A stretch of DNA of 44,672 nucleotides, taken from NCBI GenBank assembly GCA_902798965.1, contig CADBYS010000035.1, positions 1-44,672 of the forward strand, given 5' to 3'. The position numbers were made by a program, and so were the translations under genes. Shown one piece after another: positions 5,695 through 28,358 of the stretch. The first letter of the stretch is position 1. Every line of letters starts with the position of its first letter. A model generated the notes under the pieces. That model ran no database searches and was not told where the DNA came from. It saw nothing but the letters and a program-made list of their open reading frames with translations. This DNA is from an uncultured Bacteroidales bacterium. Lineage in GTDB: Bacteria > Bacteroidota > Bacteroidia > Bacteroidales > Paludibacteraceae.

Positions 5695-7239
5695 ATGGAT
5701 ACGGTTATGAGAAAGAATATATCTAACAGCCCGAAGGGCGGTCTAACAACAAAGTGGTCATACAGGCTATTTATAGCCGGTCTGACAGCGTTAGCGCTCA
5801 CATCCTGCAACTTCCTTGAGCGTCAACCATGGGATTCGGTGGATACCACCAACGGGTTCCAGACCGAAGCGGATGCCGAGGCGGCTGTCAATGCCTGCTA
5901 TCAGCCATTGCAATGGGCGAAGTTGTACAACATGCGTATCTGGACGCTGGATATTATTGCCAACGAAAGCGTGGTGGGTGCAGGCGGTGGCTCGGACGGC
6001 TTGGAGACGGTTGAAATGGCTAACTTCATTGCCACAGCCGACAACTTCGCCGCACTTGATCTCTGGCGCGGACCTTCACCGGGAATATTGCGTTGTAACT
6101 TCGTGTTGAAAGAGGTGCCCTCAATGCAGATAGAGAACGATCTTAAGAATCGCATGCTCGGTGAGGCACATTTCTTGCGCGCACATTACTATTTCATATT
6201 GGTTCGTTTGTTCGGTGGTGTACCGATGCCTACCGAGCCGCTCACATCTGACAGCAACCTGAAGATGCCTCGTGCCTCGGTTGATGAAGTGTATGCGCTG
6301 ATTATTTCTGATTTACAGGAGGCTATAGCCCGTCTGCCGCAACGTAGCGCCTACGGCACAAAGAACGTTGGGCGTGCTAGCAAAGAAGCCGCCATGGTAG
6401 AACTGGCACGTGTCTATCTGACCTATCAGCCTGATGTTGCCAAGTACAACGAGGTGGTAAGGATCTGCGAAGAGATAACATCCATGGGCTACCAGTTAGC
6501 TGCCGACTATGCCGACAACTTCAATCCCGCCAAGCAGAATGGGGTAGAGTCAATCTTCGAGATTCAGTATTACGGCAAGACGAATCACGACTTCTGGTCC
6601 AACGAGAACCAGGCTTCGTGGATCAGTCCGTTCCAAGGGCCGCGTAACTCAGGTATGGCGGCCGGTTGCTACGGCTGGAACCAGCCTACACCTGAGTTCG
6701 CCGGTCAGTACGAACCCGGCGACCTGAGGAAGGATAAGACACTGTTCTATGCCGGATGTCCGACATTTGACGGCTATACCTATTCAAGCAGTTACTCCAC
6801 GACAGGCTATAATGTCCGCAAGTTCCTGCTCACAAAAACGCAGTCGCCGGACTACAACACCAGTAACCAGAACTGGGTAGTTACCCGTTATGCGGATGTA
6901 CTGCTCATGCAGGCGGAAGCGCTCAACGAACTCGGACGTACCACCGAAGCCGAAGCACCGCTCTATCAGGTGCGCAAACGTGCAGGCCTCAGCAACCGCA
7001 GCCAAGTGGAAGGCCTGTCGCAAGCGCAGATGCGCGACAAGATCATCCATGAACGACGTATCGAACTTGCCTTTGAGGGGCACCGTTGGTTCGACATGAT
7101 CCGTTATCCGAATAACTATGCACTTAACTTCCTGCACTCCATCGGCAAAACCAATGCTACATCCAAGCATCTGCTCTTCCCCATACCCATGCAGGAGATT
7201 GAGGCAAACGAATTATTAACCCAAAATCCCGGCTACTAA
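5695..7239 (+). CDS. susD: SusD-family glycan-binding lipoprotein
   Basis: A 514-residue SusD/RagB-type lipoprotein that caps the SusC barrel and binds the glycan at the cell surface. The lipobox is LALTSC with Cys at about residue 38, so the mature protein begins CNFLERQPWD. Helical TPR-type segments include GEAHFLRAHYYFILVRLFGG (about 155-175) and SKEAAMVELARVYL. The C-terminal RYADVLLMQAEALNELG and HERRIELAFEGHRWFDMIRY stretches are hallmarks of the family. The first ATG abuts the susC stop; a second in-frame ATG at 5707 (MRKNIS) gives a more ordinary signal peptide and may be the true start. It is co-transcribed with susC, and the next gene overlaps it by one base. Confidence 0.95.
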   Translation: MDTVMRKNISNSPKGGLTTKWSYRLFIAGLTALALTSCNFLERQPWDSVDTTNGFQTEADAEAAVNACYQPLQWAKLYNMRIWTLDIIANESVVGAGGGSDGLETVEMANFIATADNFAALDLWRGPSPGILRCNFVLKEVPSMQIENDLKNRMLGEAHFLRAHYYFILVRLFGGVPMPTEPLTSDSNLKMPRASVDEVYALIISDLQEAIARLPQRSAYGTKNVGRASKEAAMVELARVYLTYQPDVAKYNEVVRICEEITSMGYQLAADYADNFNPAKQNGVESIFEIQYYGKTNHDFWSNENQASWISPFQGPRNSGMAAGCYGWNQPTPEFAGQYEPGDLRKDKTLFYAGCPTFDGYTYSSSYSTTGYNVRKFLLTKTQSPDYNTSNQNWVVTRYADVLLMQAEALNELGRTTEAEAPLYQVRKRAGLSNRSQVEGLSQAQMRDKIIHERRIELAFEGHRWFDMIRYPNNYALNFLHSIGKTNATSKHLLFPIPMQEIEANELLTQNPGY

Positions 7240-8366
7240 TGAAAACGACGAAATATATACTCTGTTTCCTGTCGTTTGCGCTTTGCGCACTGACAGCATG
7301 CGAGCAACCGGTAGATGATCCCAAGCGTGATGAGGCACTTATTCTTACCTCTTCTGCCGATACCATCATCTGCAAACCGCAGTTAGCCGGTCAGGCTGCT
7401 CTGCAACTCACGTGGACTGCTGGCACGAACAACGGTACAGGCTCGGCTATAGCTTATACGATAGATATCGACAAGGCGGGTAACGCCTTTGCCTCAGGAC
7501 TCCAACTGCTTATAGGCCGCACCATGGACCGCACCATAGTGTTCAGCCATGATATGTTGGCAGATACGCTCAAGCAGGCATTTGCCGACATACAGGAGGA
7601 GCAGTTCTATACCTTTGAGATGCGCGTACGCGCCAAGGTGGTCAAGACGGGCGACGAACAGGTTTCACCGGTTATCAAGCTCGTCCTCAAACTCAAAACA
7701 CCCGTACCGGAGTTATACCTCATCGGCGATGCCACACCGAATGGATGGTCGCTTGAGCGGGCTACAAGCATGCTCATTGATTATGACGATCCTGGTCACT
7801 ACACATGGAGCGGACCAATGTATCAAGGCGAGTTCAAACTACTCACCTCCACCGAGAGTTGGCTGCCGTGTTATGTTAGTGACGAGACGGATCCTAAAGT
7901 GATGCACTATCGCGAGAACGAAGAGGACTACCCCGACTTCAAATGGCAGATTCCATACTCCGGTAATTACACCATTGAGGTGGACACCCGATCGCTGAAC
8001 ATGGTTATCATCTCGCTTAGCGAGCCGCCGGTAGAGGAGACGTACAGCCATATCTATATGATTGGTGATGCTACTCCTGGCGGTTGGAGTTGGGATGAAG
8101 TCACCGAGCTCTCGCATCCAGAGGTGGACATCTTCACCTACGAGGGCCCGCTCAATGCCGGGCAGATTAAGTTCCCCACCGAGATCAAACACGACTGGTC
8201 GGGCGAGATGATCTATGCCCCCACGCCCGATTGCGCTCCTGCGGAGAACGGCAGTTACGACATCCACACGGGTGACCCCGACAACAAGTGGCTCATCCCG
8301 TCTGCCGGCAACTGGAGCATAACGATTGATATCAAGAACAACACCATCTCATTCAGCGCCTTATGA
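7239..8366 (+). CDS. susE: SusE-like surface glycan-binding lipoprotein
   Basis: A 375-residue lipoprotein (lipobox LTAC, Cys near residue 21). It has an N-terminal SusE-type Ig-like region (about 30-155, including ALQLTWTAGTNNGTGSAIAY) and two starch-binding-type modules, each opening with a Y(L/M)IGDATPxGW motif, at about 163-265 and 270-375. SusE and SusF proteins hold glycan at the surface without cutting it. The start codon shares one base with the susD stop, and the end overlaps the next gene by four bases (ATGA), which points to translational coupling. The first module is very like the modules fused to the second GH66 enzyme at 10647, so the ligand is probably the same glucan. Confidence 0.88.
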   Translation: MKTTKYILCFLSFALCALTACEQPVDDPKRDEALILTSSADTIICKPQLAGQAALQLTWTAGTNNGTGSAIAYTIDIDKAGNAFASGLQLLIGRTMDRTIVFSHDMLADTLKQAFADIQEEQFYTFEMRVRAKVVKTGDEQVSPVIKLVLKLKTPVPELYLIGDATPNGWSLERATSMLIDYDDPGHYTWSGPMYQGEFKLLTSTESWLPCYVSDETDPKVMHYRENEEDYPDFKWQIPYSGNYTIEVDTRSLNMVIISLSEPPVEETYSHIYMIGDATPGGWSWDEVTELSHPEVDIFTYEGPLNAGQIKFPTEIKHDWSGEMIYAPTPDCAPAENGSYDIHTGDPDNKWLIPSAGNWSITIDIKNNTISFSAL

Positions 8367-22877: not shown

Positions 22878-23318
22878 ATGGCAAACAAATCTTTTAATCT
22901 TCATCCGCAGCAATTATCCCTTGCTGATGGCACAGAACTCCGTTTGTGTCCGCTTGACCATACACACGGCAAGCCCCTCTATTGCTCCGCCGACGGGCGG
23001 TTCTTTAACCACAAAGGCAGGGAACTCCGCCCATCCGTTTTGCGTCAACGCACGTGGCGTTCGCATAACGGCATAAGCGGCTCGCACTATCCCTCCATGC
23101 GGCAGTATGGCAACTGCCACATTCTCATCGCCCTCACATGGATAGGCCCGCGCCCTGAGGGATACGAGTGTCACCATCGCAACGGTGACATGTACGACAA
23201 CCGCGCCTCCAACCTCATCTGGCTCTCCCGTGATGACCATCGCCGCTACGACGCAGCTCTCCGCGCCGCCCTCCGCCGTGGTCTCAACCTCGCCGGCGAT
23301 GTCTATGAGGGTGACTGA
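22878..23318 (+). CDS. HNH endonuclease, HNH_3 type
   Basis: A 146-residue protein. Near 101-125 it has the HNH pattern (YECHHRNGDMYDNRASNLIW, then SRDDH), with the His pair, the Asn-Gly-Asp and the N-x-x-S/N-L block of HNH homing-type nucleases found in phages and mobile elements. The upstream part contains a small beta domain (LYCSADGRFFNHKGRELRP) like the recognition domain in such proteins. No zinc-binding Cys pairs are seen. It probably nicks or cuts DNA. Codons are strongly C-ending, unlike the defence genes at 31-37 kb. The structured RNA at 23406 lies downstream of it. Confidence 0.85.
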   Translation: MANKSFNLHPQQLSLADGTELRLCPLDHTHGKPLYCSADGRFFNHKGRELRPSVLRQRTWRSHNGISGSHYPSMRQYGNCHILIALTWIGPRPEGYECHHRNGDMYDNRASNLIWLSRDDHRRYDAALRAALRRGLNLAGDVYEGD

Positions 23319-23329
23319 ACAATGTGTTT

Positions 23330-23362
23330 TTGGATAATTTTGGGTAATTTTTGACCGAAATC
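23330..23362 (+). repeat. AT-rich leader repeat, copy 1
   Basis: TTTTTGG, TAATTTTGG and TAATTTTTGAC occur in this order here and again at about 26768-26803. Here it precedes the structured RNA; there it precedes the small lipoprotein gene. TTTTTGAC may supply a -33 element, with TTCTTTG as a weak -7 box at about 23388. Confidence 0.4.
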
Positions 23363-23405
23363 TATCCATTATAATGTGTTCTTTGTAAGTTTTTTATGTT
23401 TATTT

Positions 23406-23537
23406 CTGATGTTGTCTGTTACTCGGAGAGTTATGGATTTGGCTGCTGCGGCACACGTCAAATTTATTTGAAAGGGTGACGTAGCAGACAAAGACATAGG
23501 TCCGGTACGGACAACAGACAACATCAGGGTTTATTTA
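23406..23537 (+). ncRNA. Putative structured RNA, copy 1
   Basis: An outer stem (23406-23420 with 23513-23527, 15 perfect pairs) encloses 92 bases. Directly after the 5' arm is CGGAGAGT (23424-23431). An inner stem ACGTC/GACGT (23455-23459, 23478-23482) is followed by TAGCAG (23482-23487). A 5-bp hairpin, GTCCG-GTA-CGGAC (23500-23512), abuts the 3' arm, which is followed by GGTTTATTTA (23528-23537). The same order of stems and the same unpaired words occur at 27869-27998 with different bases in the stems. It ends 75 bases before the gene at 23613, so it could also be a leader element, but copy 2 is not next to a plus-strand gene. Confidence 0.65.
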
Positions 23538-23612
23538 GGTTTATTTTCTAATAAAACCATCGTATTAGATTTTAATTGTCTTTAATTGTTGACTTAATAA
23601 ATTCATTGAAAT

Positions 23613-24053
23613 ATGAAAGCTATAGAATTAACCCAGGCGTTAATTAACGCCAACGATGTAACCATCACCAAAGTTGATGCCCTGGTAGAGACCAGTGTCC
23701 TCAAGCAGCTCATCGAGTCATGCAAAGCCCGCATCGAGCACCTCGAACCCGAAGCCAAGATCCTCGCCGAAAAAGCCCTCTCCGAGCTGGGCGAGAACTC
23801 CGGCAAGTTCGAGCACGCAGGCCACAACTACACCCTCGATCTCGCCCTCGTCTTCGACATCATCGGCAAACCCCAGAAGTACACCATGCCCGAGGGCGTC
23901 GAGTACCGCCGCATGGCTGCCGAGAAGGCTGAGTACCAGCGCCAAGCCGCCAAACTCACCCCAAAGATGAAAACCATCATGGACGACTTCCCCAAGGACC
24001 ATCCCAACATCATCCCCGATGCCATCACTCGCACCCTCAAGTGTTTGGATTGA
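23613..24053 (+). CDS. Hypothetical protein, helical
   Basis: A 146-residue protein of no recognised family. It is largely helical and charged, with a likely coiled coil at about 28-65 (VLKQLIESCKARIEHLEPEA) and a second helical region (YRRMAAEKAEYQRQAAKL). The look is that of a phage or mobile-element accessory protein. The leader is AT-rich and follows the structured RNA. Codon use is strongly C-biased from about residue 25 onward. No catalytic motif is visible, and function is unknown. Confidence 0.7.
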   Translation: MKAIELTQALINANDVTITKVDALVETSVLKQLIESCKARIEHLEPEAKILAEKALSELGENSGKFEHAGHNYTLDLALVFDIIGKPQKYTMPEGVEYRRMAAEKAEYQRQAAKLTPKMKTIMDDFPKDHPNIIPDAITRTLKCLD

Positions 24054-24079
24054 TTTATAGCTATTTGGAGTTGTGGCAT

Positions 24080-24269
24080 GTTCCCTTTTGCATCTCAAAG
24101 GGAACAAGCCGGACACCAATAGGAGAGGACGTGCCCTGCGTTGTTTAGATTCTTCCATTGCGCCGGATACTATCCGGCTCAACGCAGAGCGTTGCAGTGG
24201 GCTCGCGGTGTCCTGTTTAACGACATGTCTCCACCCTTTTAAGGGGGCCGGGGGGTAGTCGTAAAACAG
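24080..24269 (+). ncRNA. Densely structured intergenic region, possible RNA
   Basis: Between the genes at 23613 and 24475 lies a series of nested stems: GTTCCCTTT (24080-24088) with AAAGGGAAC (24097-24105); GGACACC (24111-24117) with GGTGTCC (24207-24213); inside it CTGCGTTG (24136-24143) with CAACGCAG (24180-24187); inside that GCCGGAT (24162-24168) with ATCCGGC (24172-24178); then CTGTTTAACGAC (24213-24224) with GTCGTAAAACAG (24258-24269, one mismatch). So much perfect pairing in 190 bases is unlikely to be accidental. It may be a small RNA or a long 3' UTR structure. Confidence 0.45.
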
Positions 24270-24370
24270 GAGCACCCGAGACCACCCACAAATCCCTCTT
24301 CGAATGGCCGAACGCGAGGCATCGACCAATCTTGGGCGATCAAAGAAAAAAAGAACCAAAAAAAGAAAAT

Positions 24371-24444
24371 AAAATGGTGGTGGTGGTGAATATACCCCCT
24401 ATAATCCCCCTTACACCAACACCATCACCACCACCATTTTTTTG
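24371..24444. terminator. Long-armed terminator-like inverted repeat
   Basis: AAAATGGTGGTGGTG (24371-24385) pairs perfectly with 24426-24440, extended by a G-U and two more pairs, and the right arm runs into a T tract to 24443. The matching A-rich left edge would allow termination in both directions. It lies 30 bases before the ATG at 24475. Confidence 0.6.
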
Positions 24445-24474
24445 AACAATTAATTTTTTAACACCATCACCTTT

Positions 24475-24825
24475 ATGGAATTCGATACAATCTGGCAAGT
24501 CCTTCTTGCCAACGGCACAAGCCCCCGCCGCCAATACGAAGCGGCAGCAGCCTGGGCGCTCTACAGCCCACAGCAGCAACAGCAGATCCACGACATCATC
24601 ACTGACCGCATCCGCCAGCGCAAGTTCGTCGCTTTCATCCCCACGCAGGCGTTCATCGAGGCTTCGCGCCTCATCACTGACAACGCCCCGGTCAACTACT
24701 TCGGCAAGCCTCTCTCCCGCAGCACCACCTACTACACCGCCATCTACAACGGCACAAAAGGTCTCTACACCGCTGCCGACGTTGACCGCTACCACATGTC
24801 CAACCCGCAAAAATTTGAAATTTAG
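24475..24825 (+). CDS. Hypothetical protein
   Basis: A 116-residue protein (MEFDTIWQVLLANGTSPRRQ) of no known family. Glutamine-rich helix (WALYSPQQQQQIHDIITDRI) near 28-47; the rest is mixed (FIEASRLITDNAPVNYFGKP; YYTAIYNGTKGLYTAADVDR). No signal peptide or membrane span. It has the same C-biased codon use as its neighbours and probably belongs with them to an accessory gene set. Function unknown. Confidence 0.65.
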   Translation: MEFDTIWQVLLANGTSPRRQYEAAAAWALYSPQQQQQIHDIITDRIRQRKFVAFIPTQAFIEASRLITDNAPVNYFGKPLSRSTTYYTAIYNGTKGLYTAADVDRYHMSNPQKFEI

Positions 24826-24886
24826 GTGTTTTGTGCTCGGCGCCTTTGACGCCGAGAATGATTAACCGCTTAACAGTTTAACAATT

Positions 24887-25015
24887 ATGACCCACGAACA
24901 GTATTACGAAGAGGAAGTATTCGAAGAAGAGTACTACGAGCAAGAGGACGACCGCTGCACCTACGAGCAGCGCTGGTGGGATTACTCCTTCTACGAGGAC
25001 ACCCGCTTCCTCTGA
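24887..25015 (+). CDS. 42-residue acidic peptide
   Basis: ATG at 24887 opens a 42-codon frame dense in Glu, Asp and Tyr (MTHEQYYEEEVFEEEYYEQE, then DDRCTYEQRWWDYSFYEDT). The leader (TTAACCGCTTAACAGTTTAAC) matches the style of the leader before the HNH gene, which supports translation. The very acidic, aromatic composition resembles DNA-mimic or small phage-inhibitor proteins, but that is a guess. The next gene follows after two small hairpins. Confidence 0.5.
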   Translation: MTHEQYYEEEVFEEEYYEQEDDRCTYEQRWWDYSFYEDTRFL

Positions 25016-25037
25016 CCTCCCAAGCTCCGTCCATTCC

Positions 25038-25098
25038 GGTCGGATTGTATCCGACCCATTGTAACTATTTTGTTTATTACCATCGGATGTTATCCGAT
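25038..25098. repeat. Twin CGGAT-NNN-ATCCG hairpins
   Basis: GGTCGGAT (25038-25045) pairs with ATCCGACC (25049-25056), loop TGT; ATCGGAT (25082-25088) pairs with ATCCGAT (25092-25098), loop GTT. A third of the same form (GCCGGAT, ACT, ATCCGGC) is at 24162-24178. Confidence 0.6.
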
Positions 25099-25169
25099 AC
25101 CCCAAATTTTTATCAAACCGGCACATCTTCGACGAGGATCTTTTCCAAGACACCTGTCTCGAAATATGT

Positions 25170-25589
25170 GTGTACGCCCAGCACAACAACATCCTCAACT
25201 TCCCCGGACTCTTCATCGAGCGTTACAAAAAATTGCACAAGCGCCAAGCCCAACATCAACTCGACATCGTCCCTTACGACAACGCCCAACTCGCCGACCT
25301 CGATATCCCCGACGAGACCCAAAATGTCGAAAACATTGACCAAGACATCGATTGGTTTAACGAGCAGCGCCGCGAAGAAAACAAGGAACGCTTGCACAAA
25401 AAACTCAACTACTATTACCGTCATCCGCAGCCCTGCGAGCGTGATCATCAATGTGCCTGCCGCATCCTCCGCATGTACCTCAAAGGTAAAACTTTTCGCG
25501 AAATTGCACGCAAGATGAAACTCGACGTATCCACTGTATATAAGTACTTTAGCCGCACTGTTGAACGCTTGAAAGCCAACACCCAGTGA
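25170..25589 (+). CDS. Sigma-70-like HTH protein, start uncertain
   Basis: From the GTG at 25170 the protein has 139 residues, but protein-like sequence in this frame continues upstream to about 25104 (SNRHIFDEDLFQDTCLEICV) with no ATG. The ATG at 25087 is one frame off and meets it at a T run (25107-25111), where a -1 shift on AAATTTT would join them, giving about 167 residues. The C-terminus (about 88-136: QCACRILRMYLKGKTFREIA, then MKLDVSTVYKYFSRTVERL) is a sigma region 4-like helix-turn-helix, and the upstream part resembles sigma region 2. Such small sigma-like proteins occur in mobile elements of Bacteroidales. A one-base sequence error is the simplest alternative. Confidence 0.7.
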   Translation: MYAQHNNILNFPGLFIERYKKLHKRQAQHQLDIVPYDNAQLADLDIPDETQNVENIDQDIDWFNEQRREENKERLHKKLNYYYRHPQPCERDHQCACRILRMYLKGKTFREIARKMKLDVSTVYKYFSRTVERLKANTQ

Positions 25590-25691
25590 CATTATTATAG
25601 AGGGGCATACTTCCAAACTCCCCATCGCAATTCGTTTAATTCGCTTAATTCGTGAACCTATATTGTTCTTTGGAGTTGTTGGCAGTTGTTT

Positions 25692-25747
25692 GACCTTCCA
25701 ATCACCTTCCATTGTCCTTCCATTTCCCTTCCATTGTCCTTCCATTT
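25692..25747. repeat. CCTTCCATT direct repeats
   Basis: CCTTCCATT recurs four times, with the pair CCTTCCATTGT/CCTTCCATTT repeated, in the gap between 25589 and 25811. Nothing else is seen in this gap except the AT-rich leader of the next gene. Confidence 0.6.
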
Positions 25748-25810
25748 AGCGGTCAACAACGAGCCAACATCAAGTATAACGTTGAATTTTTAACTTTTAA
25801 ATTAACCCAT

Positions 25811-26086
25811 ATGGCAGAATGTAACCTCATCCCCGGCATCGCCTCCATCTCAGGCAAGTTAGGCAAAGTCCTTTTCAAGACCTTCACGCGCTCCGACGGC
25901 ACTTCCGTGACCCGCGTCTATCGAACCGATGCCCGTACCAAGCGCTGCTCCCCGCCATCCGAGCGCGAACTTGCCCACCGCAGCCTTTTTGGCCGTATCT
26001 GCTCCGAGGTCGCCCGCCGCCAACGCAACGGTGACACCCGCCCCAAGAAAATCATCTGGGACGAAGTCTCCCGCACCCTCCAATAG
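25811..26086 (+). CDS. Small basic protein, family of three paralogues (1)
   Basis: Start chosen at ATG 25811 (MAECNLIPGIASISGKLGKV), after an AT-rich leader; the longer frame from 25712 passes through direct repeats. The 91-residue protein has the pattern S-G-K-L, a strand ending in TRVYRTDARTKR, then a P-S-E-R-E-x-A-H-R-x-x-F block and a helix. The gene at 26297 and the minus-strand gene at 40833 share this layout (GKL or GAL, a Y/R strand, a S-x-E-x-x-x-R-x-x-F helix). Proteins of this general type are common hypotheticals in Bacteroidales and are basic, so nucleic-acid or phage-structural roles are possible. No proven function. Confidence 0.65.
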   Translation: MAECNLIPGIASISGKLGKVLFKTFTRSDGTSVTRVYRTDARTKRCSPPSERELAHRSLFGRICSEVARRQRNGDTRPKKIIWDEVSRTLQ

Positions 26087-26091
26087 CCGCT

Positions 26092-26136
26092 GTTGCTCTC
26101 GGCTCAAAATTTGAGCAACACCTGAACCTTAACTTT
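26092..26136 (+). terminator. Alternative hairpins after the small basic gene
   Basis: GTTGCTC (26092-26098) can pair with GAGCAAC (26111-26117), while GCTCAAA can pair with TTTGAGC in the same interval; the two folds exclude each other. A T tract follows around 26130. Confidence 0.45.
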
Positions 26137-26218
26137 TTTTATAAACCTAAGCCCCTCGTACGGCGCGAGGAACATTGCAATCGTACAATTGATGCAATCG
26201 TCAATAAATCGTAAATCC

Positions 26219-26250
26219 GGGGTCCCCACAATCAACGTGAAGTGGGGTGG
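26219..26250. repeat. GGGGTCCCC-type element
   Basis: GGGGTCCCC (26219-26227) to GGGGTGG (26244-26250), with an interior nearly the same as that of the element at 725. It interrupts a stretch of CAATCGT and GTCAATC repeats, as if inserted there. Confidence 0.6.
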
Positions 26251-26296
26251 CTTGTCAATCGTACAATCGTCAATCACTAAACAACGCCGAGTTATT

Positions 26297-26689
26297 ATGG
26301 CAAAAGTCGAATATGCCGACGCAATCAAAACCGTCAGTGGTGCTCTCACCAAGATTAACAAGAAGTCGCTCCACGCAGCCGACCAGAAGATGGTTCTTGC
26401 TACCCACCGCGTAGCCCCCAGCACCAGCGGCGCATGCTCCCGCCTCTACCTCCGCGGCTTGAGCGCCGTTTCCCGCTCCACCGAGCCCACCAGCGATGAG
26501 TTGGCAGCACGTACGCGATTCAGCATCGTGTCGGCGCAGGTGGCACAGCGCAAGAAGAACCTGGCGACGATGAACCAAGACCGTGAGGCGTTCGAGGCGC
26601 AGAAGAACACCCCGGGCGGCAAGAAGACCCTGGTATCCTACCTGTGGATGGTCGTTGGTGCGGCTTACGACGCTGAGCACCAAGGTTAG
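26297..26689 (+). CDS. Small basic protein, family of three paralogues (2)
   Basis: Start chosen at ATG 26297 (MAKVEYADAIKTVSGALTKI), giving 130 residues; the upstream in-frame extension runs through the GGGGTCCCC element and is rejected. It shows VSGALTKINKKS, a strand MVLATHRVAPSTS, then PTSDELAARTRFSIVSAQVA, the same S-x-E-x-x-x-R-x-x-F block as the proteins at 25811 and 40833. The C-terminal part adds a helix-rich segment ending VGAAYDAEHQG. Function unknown; its regular recurrence in one genome suggests a mobile-element or phage-derived family. Confidence 0.7.
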   Translation: MAKVEYADAIKTVSGALTKINKKSLHAADQKMVLATHRVAPSTSGACSRLYLRGLSAVSRSTEPTSDELAARTRFSIVSAQVAQRKKNLATMNQDREAFEAQKNTPGGKKTLVSYLWMVVGAAYDAEHQG

Positions 26690-26731
26690 TAAGCGATTAC
26701 ATCCCGAATCCTAACCGATTACGTCCCTGAT

Positions 26732-26749
26732 CCGGAGCGTCAGCTCCGG
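26732..26749 (+). terminator. G+C-rich hairpin after 26297 gene
   Basis: CCGGAGC (26732-26738) pairs with GCTCCGG (26743-26749), loop GTCA. It lacks a T run right after the stem. Confidence 0.45.
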
Positions 26750-26810
26750 TTCTCGGACAATCATAAATTTTTGGCTAATTTTGGATAATTTTTGACAAAA
26801 ATGCGATTCT

Positions 26811-26993
26811 ATGAAGCGATTCTTATTGACTTTATTCGTTGTGTCGTTGATAACTGCCGCTGGTGCGTTAATCACTTCTTGCAACGTCACCCGCACCGTG
26901 ACCACAAGCAGCTCCTACGTCCAACGCGGCGACACAACAGTCCTGATCCAATCAAAAACGATTGAATCCTACGACGCCAGCAAAAGGCTCTAA
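26811..26993 (+). CDS. Tiny lipoprotein
   Basis: A 60-residue lipoprotein: signal peptide with lipobox ITSC (Cys near residue 24), then NVTRTVTTSSSYVQRGDTTV and IQSKTIESYDASKRL. Very similar short lipoproteins, with the CNVTRT start and a TTVxIxxKTIExYDA tail, are common in Bacteroidales, often near mobile-element genes; function unknown. It follows the second copy of the AT-rich leader repeat (about 26768-26803). It ends the small-gene island. Confidence 0.7.
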   Translation: MKRFLLTLFVVSLITAAGALITSCNVTRTVTTSSSYVQRGDTTVLIQSKTIESYDASKRL

Positions 26994-27063
26994 CCCACAT
27001 CCGAGAGACGACTCCCACCAGCCGTCTCTCATTGTTTTCTCCCACCCGCCCACCCGGTAGAAG

Positions 27064-27098
27064 CCCCCAAAGAGCGCTATTGTCATGCACTCTTTGGG
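27064..27098. repeat. CCCCAAAGAGCGC dyad
   Basis: CCCCAAAGAG and CTCTTTGGGG form a stem around a short loop, as in the element at 263-303, with which it shares CAAAGAGCGCTA. It may be a terminator for the lipoprotein gene, or a member of the GGGGTCCCC family lacking its first half. Confidence 0.55.
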
Positions 27099-27158
27099 GA
27101 AAACGAAGACTTGTTCCTTTTTGTGTGGGCTTGTTCCTTTTTTCCTGCCAATGATCAC

Positions 27159-27302
27159 AAGACGTTCCAAAGAACCCAAGACGTTTCGAAGATTACAAGA
27201 CGTTTCGTTGAATCCAAGACGTTACGAAGATCACAAGACGTTTCGTTGAATCCAAGACGGAGTAGGGTACAAGGCGTGACAAAACAAAGAACCTCAAGGA
27301 TT
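27159..27302. repeat. Composite repeat, inverted copy with 19-bp minisatellite
   Basis: AAGACG starts at 27159, 27178, 27197, 27216, 27235 and 27254, an exact 19-bp period. It is followed by TACAAGGCGTGACAAAACAA (about 27268-27287), which is the reverse complement of the lead segment at 59-93. The whole is thus an inverted counterpart of 59-240. The open frame through it is not a credible gene. Confidence 0.8.
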
Positions 27303-27571
27303 AGTTCCTCAAGGGTTCTGAAAATGGCGGCTACCTACTCTCCCACAATGCGCAGTACCATCGGCGTTGCTGAGCTTGGTGTAGCGCGCTCCGCGCTCCC
27401 CTCCGCTGCCCCCTCACGCTGTGCTCCGCTGCCCTGCCTGCCTCCGTAGCCGTAGCCTCCGCTGCTGCCATAGCCCACTGCCTGCATTGCGCCCTGCCTG
27501 CTGCCTGCTGCGCTGGGCGGACACTGCGCGTGGCTCACCATCCCCGCGCTCACAGACTCTACTTGGGCTCG
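27279..27571. repeat. Long inverted repeat, left arm
   Basis: This arm is, with some insertions and deletions, the reverse complement of 28099-28358. Both contain CAAAACAAAGAACC near the outer end, GGCGGCTACC, a G+C-rich stretch with many CTGCC and CTCCG words, and AGACTCTACTTGGGCTCG near the inner end. Long open frames on both strands arise from its low complexity. Confidence 0.8.
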
Positions 27572-27866
27572 ATTTCATTGATTCCATTTCGTAGAACTCT
27601 TCCTATGATCCCTTTCATAGAACCATTACAAAACATTCCCTGCAATCATCATATAAACCATCCCCGTGCACGCATACACGCGAATATGCATGCGCACGCT
27701 TACATAATACACGCATACACATGCTTATACACATATACACACATACACACATCACACGCACACCTAATAATAAAGTAAAAGAATACATCTCCTACAATAA
27801 CAAAAAAAGTTGTCCGAAACTCCCTCGTCATTGTTATTATTCTCCTTCTGTTTTTTCTGTTGTATT
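27572..27866. other. Spacer of the long inverted repeat
   Basis: No gene seen. It has a microsatellite-like run of ACAC, ATAC and CATA words at about 27660-27765, then AT-rich DNA leading into the structured RNA at 27869. Confidence 0.6.
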
Positions 27867-27868
27867 GC

Positions 27869-27998
27869 TTTTGAGTGTTTCACCCGGAGAGTGGTGATAA
27901 TTGATTATAAAAACTATCCGAAAACTTGCTTTCGAGGAGTTTTTAGCAGCAATTAGCACAAGAAACGGAGTTTCAAAACACTCAAAATGGTTTATTTA
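27869..27998 (+). ncRNA. Putative structured RNA, copy 2
   Basis: The outer stem TTTTGAGTGTTT (27869-27880) pairs with AAACACTCAAAA (27976-27987) around 95 bases. CGGAGAGT follows the 5' arm (27885-27892). An inner stem AAAAACT/AGTTTTT (27909-27915, 27938-27944) caps CGAAA/TTTCG and is followed by TAGCAG (27944-27949). The hairpin GAAAC-GGA-GTTTC (27962-27974) sits one base before the 3' arm, and GGTTTATTTA is at 27989-27998. Stem sequences differ from copy 1 at 23406 while pairing and the three unpaired words are kept, which is what selection on RNA structure produces. It lies inside the long inverted repeat, with no plus-strand gene downstream. Confidence 0.65.
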
Positions 27999-28098
27999 TG
28001 TTTTGTTTCAAACAGGGACATCCGAAAAAGAATAAAGCGAACCGAATGAAACAAACGGACGAAGGAATAAAGTAGCGAAGGTTTATTTGCGAAGGTCA

Positions 28099-28358
28099 CG
28101 AGCCCAAGTAGAGTCGCAGAGCGCTGACGATGCGAGCCGACACAGCAGTGTCCGCCCAGCGCAGCAGGCAGCAGGCAGGGAGCAATGCAGGCAGTGGGCT
28201 ATGCAGCGGAGGCTACGGAGGCAGGCAGGGCAGCGGAGCACAGCGTGAGGGGGCAGCGGAGGGGAGCGCGGAGCGCGCTACACCAAGCTCAGCAACGCCG
28301 AAGGTAGCCGCCACTTTCAGAACCCTTGAGGAGCATCCTTGAGGGTTCTTTGTTTTGT
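28099..28358. repeat. Long inverted repeat, right arm
   Basis: Reverse complement of 27279-27571, about 30 bases shorter. It ends 13 bases before the end of the methyltransferase gene on the other strand. Confidence 0.8.

Follow-up and report, generated by a model that had tools for sequence, protein, structure and literature searches.

Cloverleaf hairpins in a gut Bacteroidales lineage as probable ends of a dispersed mobile element with a candidate GxxExxY nuclease

Introduction

In contig CADBYS010000035.1 of an uncultured Bacteroidales bacterium of the Paludibacteraceae (assembly GCA_902798965.1), of which the whole stretch of 44,672 nucleotides (nt) analysed here is called the window, two sites share one folded plan built from differing stem sequences, raising the question of what kind of element such a repeated fold belongs to. 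An initial annotation took the pair for a new structured RNA present in two copies. The sites look instead like ends of a mobile element, and on balance we think it probable that each represents the right end of a two-ended mobile element dispersed in a gut Bacteroidales lineage related to the Paludibacteraceae, with a nuclease of the GxxExxY family mobilising it and the fold acting as single-stranded DNA. That the element is mobile is well supported; that it is a REPIN-like element (REPIN, repetitive extragenic palindromic doublet forming a hairpin) mobilised by GxxExxY is proposed.

Fold and covariation

Direct reading of the window found both structures where they had been placed, from 23406 and 27869 onward. 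Each is a cloverleaf in which an outer stem, P1, encloses three hairpins, P2, P3 and P4, the end spanning ~123 nt between AT-rich words. The parts are as follows.

23338 to 23405, + strand: copy 1, remnant of the element's centre, from its right half (the stretch 23338-23555 and the element at locus L070, compared over its centre and right end, share 87% identity)
23406 to 23527, + strand: copy 1, right-end cloverleaf, type A
23406 to 23420, + strand: copy 1, P1 5' arm, 15 base pairs (bp) with 23513-23527
23421 to 23431, + strand: copy 1, P2 hairpin ACTC-GGA-GAGT
23432 to 23498, + strand: copy 1, long P3 arm, tip TCAAATTTATTTGA
23500 to 23512, + strand: copy 1, P4 hairpin GTCCG-GTA-CGGAC
23513 to 23527, + strand: copy 1, P1 3' arm
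23528 to 23548, + strand: copy 1, outer AT-rich word GGTTTATTTAGGTTTATTTTC, end limit approximate
27868 to 27988, + strand: copy 2, right-end cloverleaf, type C, solo
27869 to 27880, + strand: copy 2, P1 5' arm, 12 bp with 27976-27987
27882 to 27892, + strand: copy 2, P2 hairpin ACCC-GGA-GAGT with one C/A mismatch
27893 to 27960, + strand: copy 2, P3 long arm, limits approximate
27962 to 27974, + strand: copy 2, P4 hairpin GAAAC-GGA-GTTTC
27976 to 27987, + strand: copy 2, P1 3' arm
27989 to 28009, + strand: copy 2, outer AT-rich word GGTTTATTTATGTTTTGTTTC

The outer stem of 12-15 perfect pairs described initially (15 in copy 1, 12 in copy 2) and the 5-bp hairpin with a 3-base loop (P4) are present in both copies. 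The identical words CGGAGAGT and TAGCAG had been called unpaired, a description that does not hold, as they lie mostly inside helices: CGGAGAGT forms the loop and 3' side of the small P2 hairpin (ACTC-GGA-GAGT), and in the central arm TGNTA and TAGCA form a helix that usually includes a single A/G mismatch. In this order, the words CGGAGAGT, TAGCAG and GGTTTAT are found at two places in the window, and none of 100 dinucleotide shuffles contains them so arranged. An upstream AT-rich word resembling the downstream one, TTTATTTATGTTTATT, is found in many copies and is weak in copy 2. No left-end hairpin was found beside the centre remnant of copy 1 (23338..23405). Both copies fold better than shuffled sequence, with RNA parameters (z -8.96 for copy 1 over 140 nt; z -2.89 for copy 2 over 142 nt, where 1 of 200 shuffles was equally good) and with DNA parameters (z -11.92 over 123 nt and -5.93 over 122 nt, respectively).

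The structure was read by hand from three copies, in which two-sided changes affect 25 of the 48 pairs, compared with 2 to 6 once the structure is slid along the sequence, and the covariance model built from it (R1) was then used to find more copies. In an alignment of 93 sequences (A11), which was fitted to the covariance model and is hence biased towards its structure, all 48 pairs change on both sides with a covariation score of 0.741 (at most 0.118 in slid controls), and 91.9% of 4403 cells are paired (at most 47.3%). Searching relatives with a covariance model, the check proposed by the initial annotation, thus returned homologues with compensatory changes, and the shared fold is real. 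Across the alignment P1 is ~15 bp, P2 ~4 bp with a GNA loop and P4 5 bp with a 3-base loop, while the long P3 pairs TGNTA with TAGCA around a usual A/G mismatch (a step unpaired in 63 of 93) and ends in a tip such as AAGTTTACTT or AAGCTCGCTT. No base separates P1 from P2 in 64/93, P2 from P3 in 92/93 or P4 from P1 in 81/93, and a single base lies between P3 and P4 in 79/93; the cloverleaf is close to a perfect four-way junction.

Absence from known RNA classes, as first supposed, was borne out by Rfam 15, which gave no match over the window; at six hairpin loci, none of 10 rows up to E=5 covers a hairpin. A known RNA family is ruled out by these searches, no family reaching the gathering threshold at the hairpins, and a tRNA or tmRNA is likewise ruled out, none being found in the window.

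DNA or RNA as the folding strand

The compensatory changes had been taken as the mark of RNA covariation. The changes themselves stand; as the working form, single-stranded DNA is favoured over RNA by the GNA triloops, by tips of two bases and by the larger share of pairs that DNA parameters recover. GNA triloops close P2 in 75/93 and P4 in 54/93 sequences, and such loops are said, in work by Yoshizawa from 1997, to make very stable DNA minihairpins. At least 80/93 P3 tips consist of four bases with pairable outer two (TTTA, CTCG, TTCA, CTTG and similar), leaving two-base loops, which DNA tolerates. The supported pairs are recovered at a mean of 0.945 with DNA parameters and 0.888 with RNA parameters (52 rows better with DNA, 17 with RNA), P2 and P4 forming in 86/93 and 88/93 with the former and in 69/93 and 71/93 with the latter.

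Dispersal in the genome and its relatives

The initial count of two copies proved far too low, as the draft genome from which the window comes (G000; 2.85 Mb, 51 contigs) carries 41, a number obtained by manual sorting of 53 rows at E<=1, of which 7 were discarded as antisense duplicates and 5 as fragments or weak rows. Several copies touch contig ends and therefore further copies may have been lost in assembly. At E<=0.01, R1 matched 23 of 37 genomes of the same genus and none of the 24 from other families, the number of cloverleaf rows within the genus ranging from 0 to 45 per genome. The named matches are Paludibacteraceae or uncultured Bacteroidales metagenome genomes, some of them from deer, sheep and goat. 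A second model, R2, was run on 295 genomes of the order, 2 of them from this genus, scoring the best ~11 candidates per genome, so that copy numbers and absences are soft; weaker matches appeared in 4 of the 293 others (G201, G315, G366 with 3 copies, and G442). Restriction to one genus thus appears not to be absolute, and the matches outside it may be relatives or convergent palindromes.

Cloverleaf palindromes of a similar four-armed plan are seen in three other Bacteroidales families (L191, 1501-1625; L193, 476-603; L194, 1501-1608), directly behind tRNA-Cys, tRNA-Pro and tRNA-Ser genes, respectively. At L192 and L196, both in G366, a genome with no GxxExxY match, the cloverleaf copies have the tip AAAGCTTGCTTT.

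A two-ended element

Among the matches listed, neighbouring copies no more than 400 nt apart point outward (-,+) in 21 of 23 cases and run (+,+) in the other 2, a bias with p 3e-11 calculated over rows that are partly dependent (the L173 pair is the orthologue of a G001 pair), while neighbours 400 to 1500 nt apart, again among the matches listed, are mixed in orientation (6/6/6/3). The rows were hand-picked from the listed matches; antisense duplicates and fragments were passed over, as were genomes represented by one listed copy and the named loci taken for G001 (L167-L169, L172, L177 and L181). A rough motif-based split gives one left-end type and two right-end types, A and C, and a small complete element consists of a left-end hairpin, a 40-300 bp centre and a right-end hairpin, with the hairpins pointing outward. 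The outer words of the ends examined read outward as GTTTATTTTC or near it, and some subfamilies are alike for ~20 nt further.

An empty orthologous site, as expected of a transposon or miniature inverted-repeat transposable element (MITE), was found in G007 by comparison with G000: between the same two genes, named by eye as peptidase-like and recG-like, G000 has ~400 nt with a two-ended element, G001 one type C hairpin and G007 only ~46 nt, ~350 nt being missing. At a second site the spacer is much shorter in L119, L122 and L123, with no alignable edge. A by-eye look for a promoter in the element centre established none.

The GxxExxY gene between the ends

All three outward pairs spaced 400-1500 nt among the matches listed (G000 C2, G000 C13 and G029 C26) enclose a GxxExxY gene. 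The enclosed protein is ~146 amino acids long in L066 (gene at 7108-7545), L065 and L063, and at L078 a version 40% identical has a full hairpin on its left and part of one on its right (alignment and Pfam identified the proteins of L063 and L078). Across 25 genomes of the genus there are 20 GxxExxY genes; on one or both sides, at a distance of up to 300 nt, 6 of them, including that of L078, have a clear hairpin and 1 a weak one.

The family assignment is given by TIGR04256 (105 bits, cut-off 35), and PF13366 (PDDEXK_3) matched all 27 GxxExxY proteins, in which D83, E93 and K95 are invariant. The structure modelled with AlphaFold2 (predicted local distance difference test score, 93.9) is nearest in the PDB to 4ic1 (SSO0001; E 4e-5), which we take to be a Cas4, with lambda exonuclease weaker (E 0.012). 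GxxExxY is thus a PD-(D/E)XK nuclease with a predicted Cas4-like fold, and its position between the hairpins suggests a role in moving the element. One published passage names GxxExxY beside a reverse transcriptase where cas4 was expected, and not as part of a mobile element (PMC8934634). By word search of the open-access literature, the name GxxExxY occurs in only two papers and no listed paper joins GxxExxY or PDDEXK_3 with mobile repeats; for a possible link of GxxExxY to intervening sequences of 23S rRNA, none of the 15 papers listed contains GxxExxY.

Repeats around GxxExxY genes across the class

GxxExxY is present in 77 of 119 sampled genomes of the class. The flanks of 30 such genes, the best-scoring locus in each of 30 genomes and not a random draw, were compared in windows of 450 nt (with a default gene span for L144, L150, L153 and L159), and the two sides share a repeat at a score of at least 50 in 14/30 and at least 34 in 21/30. 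At the higher threshold the controls gave 0/240 for cross-locus pairs, 0/56 for same-locus pairs and 3/28 for the flanks of ParE toxin genes, the last rising to 5/28 at the lower threshold; the raw ParE counts were 4/29 and 6/29, before L230 (score 900, a contig-edge artefact) was removed, L224 having been dropped for its short flank. GxxExxY and ParE flanks differ with a Mann-Whitney p of 2e-5, calculated with the L230 artefact included, which works against the claim. At the loci read, the flank repeats are palindromic, inverted or direct and differ in sequence between genomes, and one of them, CACAGAGNNCACAGAG, is found in 26/77 genomes with GxxExxY and 1/42 without (p 5e-5, uncorrected for kinship). 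At L085 and L090, from other lineages, tandem arrays of palindromic units lie on both sides of the GxxExxY gene.

A broader proposal, which we advance tentatively and hold to be somewhat short of an even chance, is that GxxExxY proteins serve as mobilising nucleases for a class of repeat elements that forms a counterpart to REPIN-RAYT (RAYT, REP-associated tyrosine transposase; REP, repetitive extragenic palindromic sequence), each protein acting on its own palindromic repeats, and that the Paludibacteraceae ends would have evolved to adopt, as single-stranded DNA, a cloverleaf resembling a Holliday junction, which a PD-(D/E)XK enzyme of the Cas4/lambda-exonuclease type would cut.

Weighing the explanations

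Several findings weigh against mobilisation by GxxExxY of ends folded as DNA. No hairpin was detected within 300 nt of 13 of the 20 genus GxxExxY genes, G002 and G006 (90% and 84% complete) have 18 hairpin rows each and no GxxExxY match, and G366, outside the genus, has three cloverleaf matches and no GxxExxY match; class-wide, 16 of 30 GxxExxY flanks score below 50. Many copies are solo, and neither a target-site duplication nor an exact terminus was fixed, the k-mers shared beside 16 elements averaging 3.19 against 2.52 in mismatched pairs. The excess of G/T over A/C in helix cells (140 against 28, one mismatch column omitted) suggests that one strand matters; it also fits RNA and, as the model-fitted alignment favours G/U, part of it may be bias. 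The tRNA control for the folding parameters is small and ambiguous (9 tRNAs; 0.725 with RNA and 0.603 with DNA parameters, 4 rows better each way). Placement relative to genes is also non-random, right ends preceding gene starts (within 250 nt, 12 starts against 5 ends, with 9 farther) and left ends lying at gene ends (10 against 2, 3 other), which could mean a function in transcripts. This orientation is the main fact that a mobile-DNA mechanism leaves unexplained, and may reflect selection against gene-silencing insertions or a leader function.

The last of these is the substance of one rival, a mobile leader RNA of the 5' untranslated region in which the transcribed hairpin controls the gene behind it and copy spread is secondary. 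Many right ends do lie in sense a few tens of nt ahead of a gene start, the fold is strand-specific and the covariation strong, but left ends abut gene ends, the downstream genes look unrelated (most were not compared with a library), the loops are mostly GNA triloops better fitted by DNA parameters and no Rfam family matches, so that we regard this explanation as unlikely. That most copies lack the gene and some copy-rich genomes lack GxxExxY would suit a MITE family that owes its movement to an unrelated transposase, with GxxExxY a mere passenger. This we judge improbable, as all three wider outward pairs among the matches listed enclose the gene, the divergent L078 version has a hairpin on one side and part of one on the other, class-wide GxxExxY genes tend to sit between repeats of other sequences, and the Y1_Tnp profile (PF01797), the one transposase family searched, has no match in G000 and matches only 4 of the 37 genus genomes, being absent from the other 33. 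The REPIN-like arrangement itself, inverted doublets (21 of 23 close listed neighbours outward) with GxxExxY between hairpins, is what was found here, and a strict REP/REPIN-RAYT or IS200/IS605 derivative, with a Y1 HUH enzyme acting on the hairpin ends, would share the logic of inverted palindrome doublets, a flanked small nuclease gene and miniature extragenic copies seen in the REPIN literature (PMC3116915, PMC6006769). The companion fold is PD-(D/E)XK, however, and PF01797 has no match in G000, by which a RAYT/Y1 partner is disfavoured, nor in the copy-rich G001, G002, G006, G018, G029 and G035; only 3 of 23 hairpin-positive genus genomes have any match, and such a derivative is very improbable. 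According to the initial annotation, a match to a known transposon end or an Rfam family would have spoken against a new RNA. No Rfam family matched; the character of a transposon-like end is largely there, in the outward pairs, ~40 dispersed copies, the empty orthologous site and the nuclease gene within some pairs.

Proposed mechanism and significance

For the favoured GxxExxY-mobilised element, we infer all steps beyond the fold. The full-size element would carry the GxxExxY gene in its centre, small copies comprising a hairpin, a short centre and a hairpin. Each end would fold into its strand-specific cloverleaf on one DNA strand, for example during lagging-strand synthesis, where GxxExxY would recognise the junction or loops and nick, and small copies would spread in trans through GxxExxY, as RAYT is thought to do for REPINs. 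If true, this would assign a function to a nuclease family that is widespread but uncharacterised, account for the origin of some Bacteroidia palindromic repeats and describe a transposition-like system without HUH, DDE, serine or tyrosine enzymes. It also urges caution, since strong intergenic covariation can mark single-stranded DNA folds besides RNA; the two may be easier to separate with the aid of loop types and DNA folding parameters.

Neighbouring features of the window

Directly upstream of copy 1, at 22878-23318, lies an HNH endonuclease gene that matches phage families. Copy 2 is flanked by inverted arms (27306-27571 and 28099-28332; longest block 96 nt, 99% complementary), the outer parts of which resemble by eye a 5S rRNA 3' end with its terminator, Rfam giving no 5S rRNA match in the arms up to E 1; rRNA debris, an inserted palindrome and a fault of assembly are all conceivable. 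An array with a 19-nt step based on CAAGACGTTTCG occupies 27139-27259, and the AT-rich intergenic motif TTTTTGGNTAATTTTGGNTAATTTTTGAC, possibly a promoter motif, recurs before genes at 23327-23361 and 26768-26802.

Comparison with known systems

As described in the literature, REPIN-RAYT systems combine inverted palindrome doublets with miniature copies and with a small nuclease gene that has palindromes on its flanks (PMC3116915, PMC6006769, PMC3733652). The present element resembles REPIN/RAYT (TnpA-REP, 'REPtron') in its dispersed extragenic palindromes, inverted doublets, palindrome-flanked small nuclease gene and miniature copies, and differs in its companion, RAYT being a Y1 HUH enzyme and GxxExxY a PD-(D/E)XK protein, and in its end, a ~123-nt cloverleaf with a four-way junction where REP is a 20-40-nt palindrome. 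With IS200/IS605 it shares secondary structures near both ends, a strand-specific fold and a single small enzyme, whereas here no Y1 transposase was found, the ends are outward-facing inverted copies and the fold is much larger. Like MITEs, the small elements are non-autonomous, two-ended, intergenic and of high copy number; unlike them, they have no classical transposase partner identified (Y1 alone was searched), and their end regions are structured and covarying where MITE ends are plain inverted repeats. The gene within full-size elements clearly belongs to the GxxExxY proteins (TIGR04256/PF13366 PDDEXK_3). As it lacks the Y1 enzyme, the element is not a member of REPIN-RAYT; by analogy it may nevertheless work like one, possibly with a wider class behind it.

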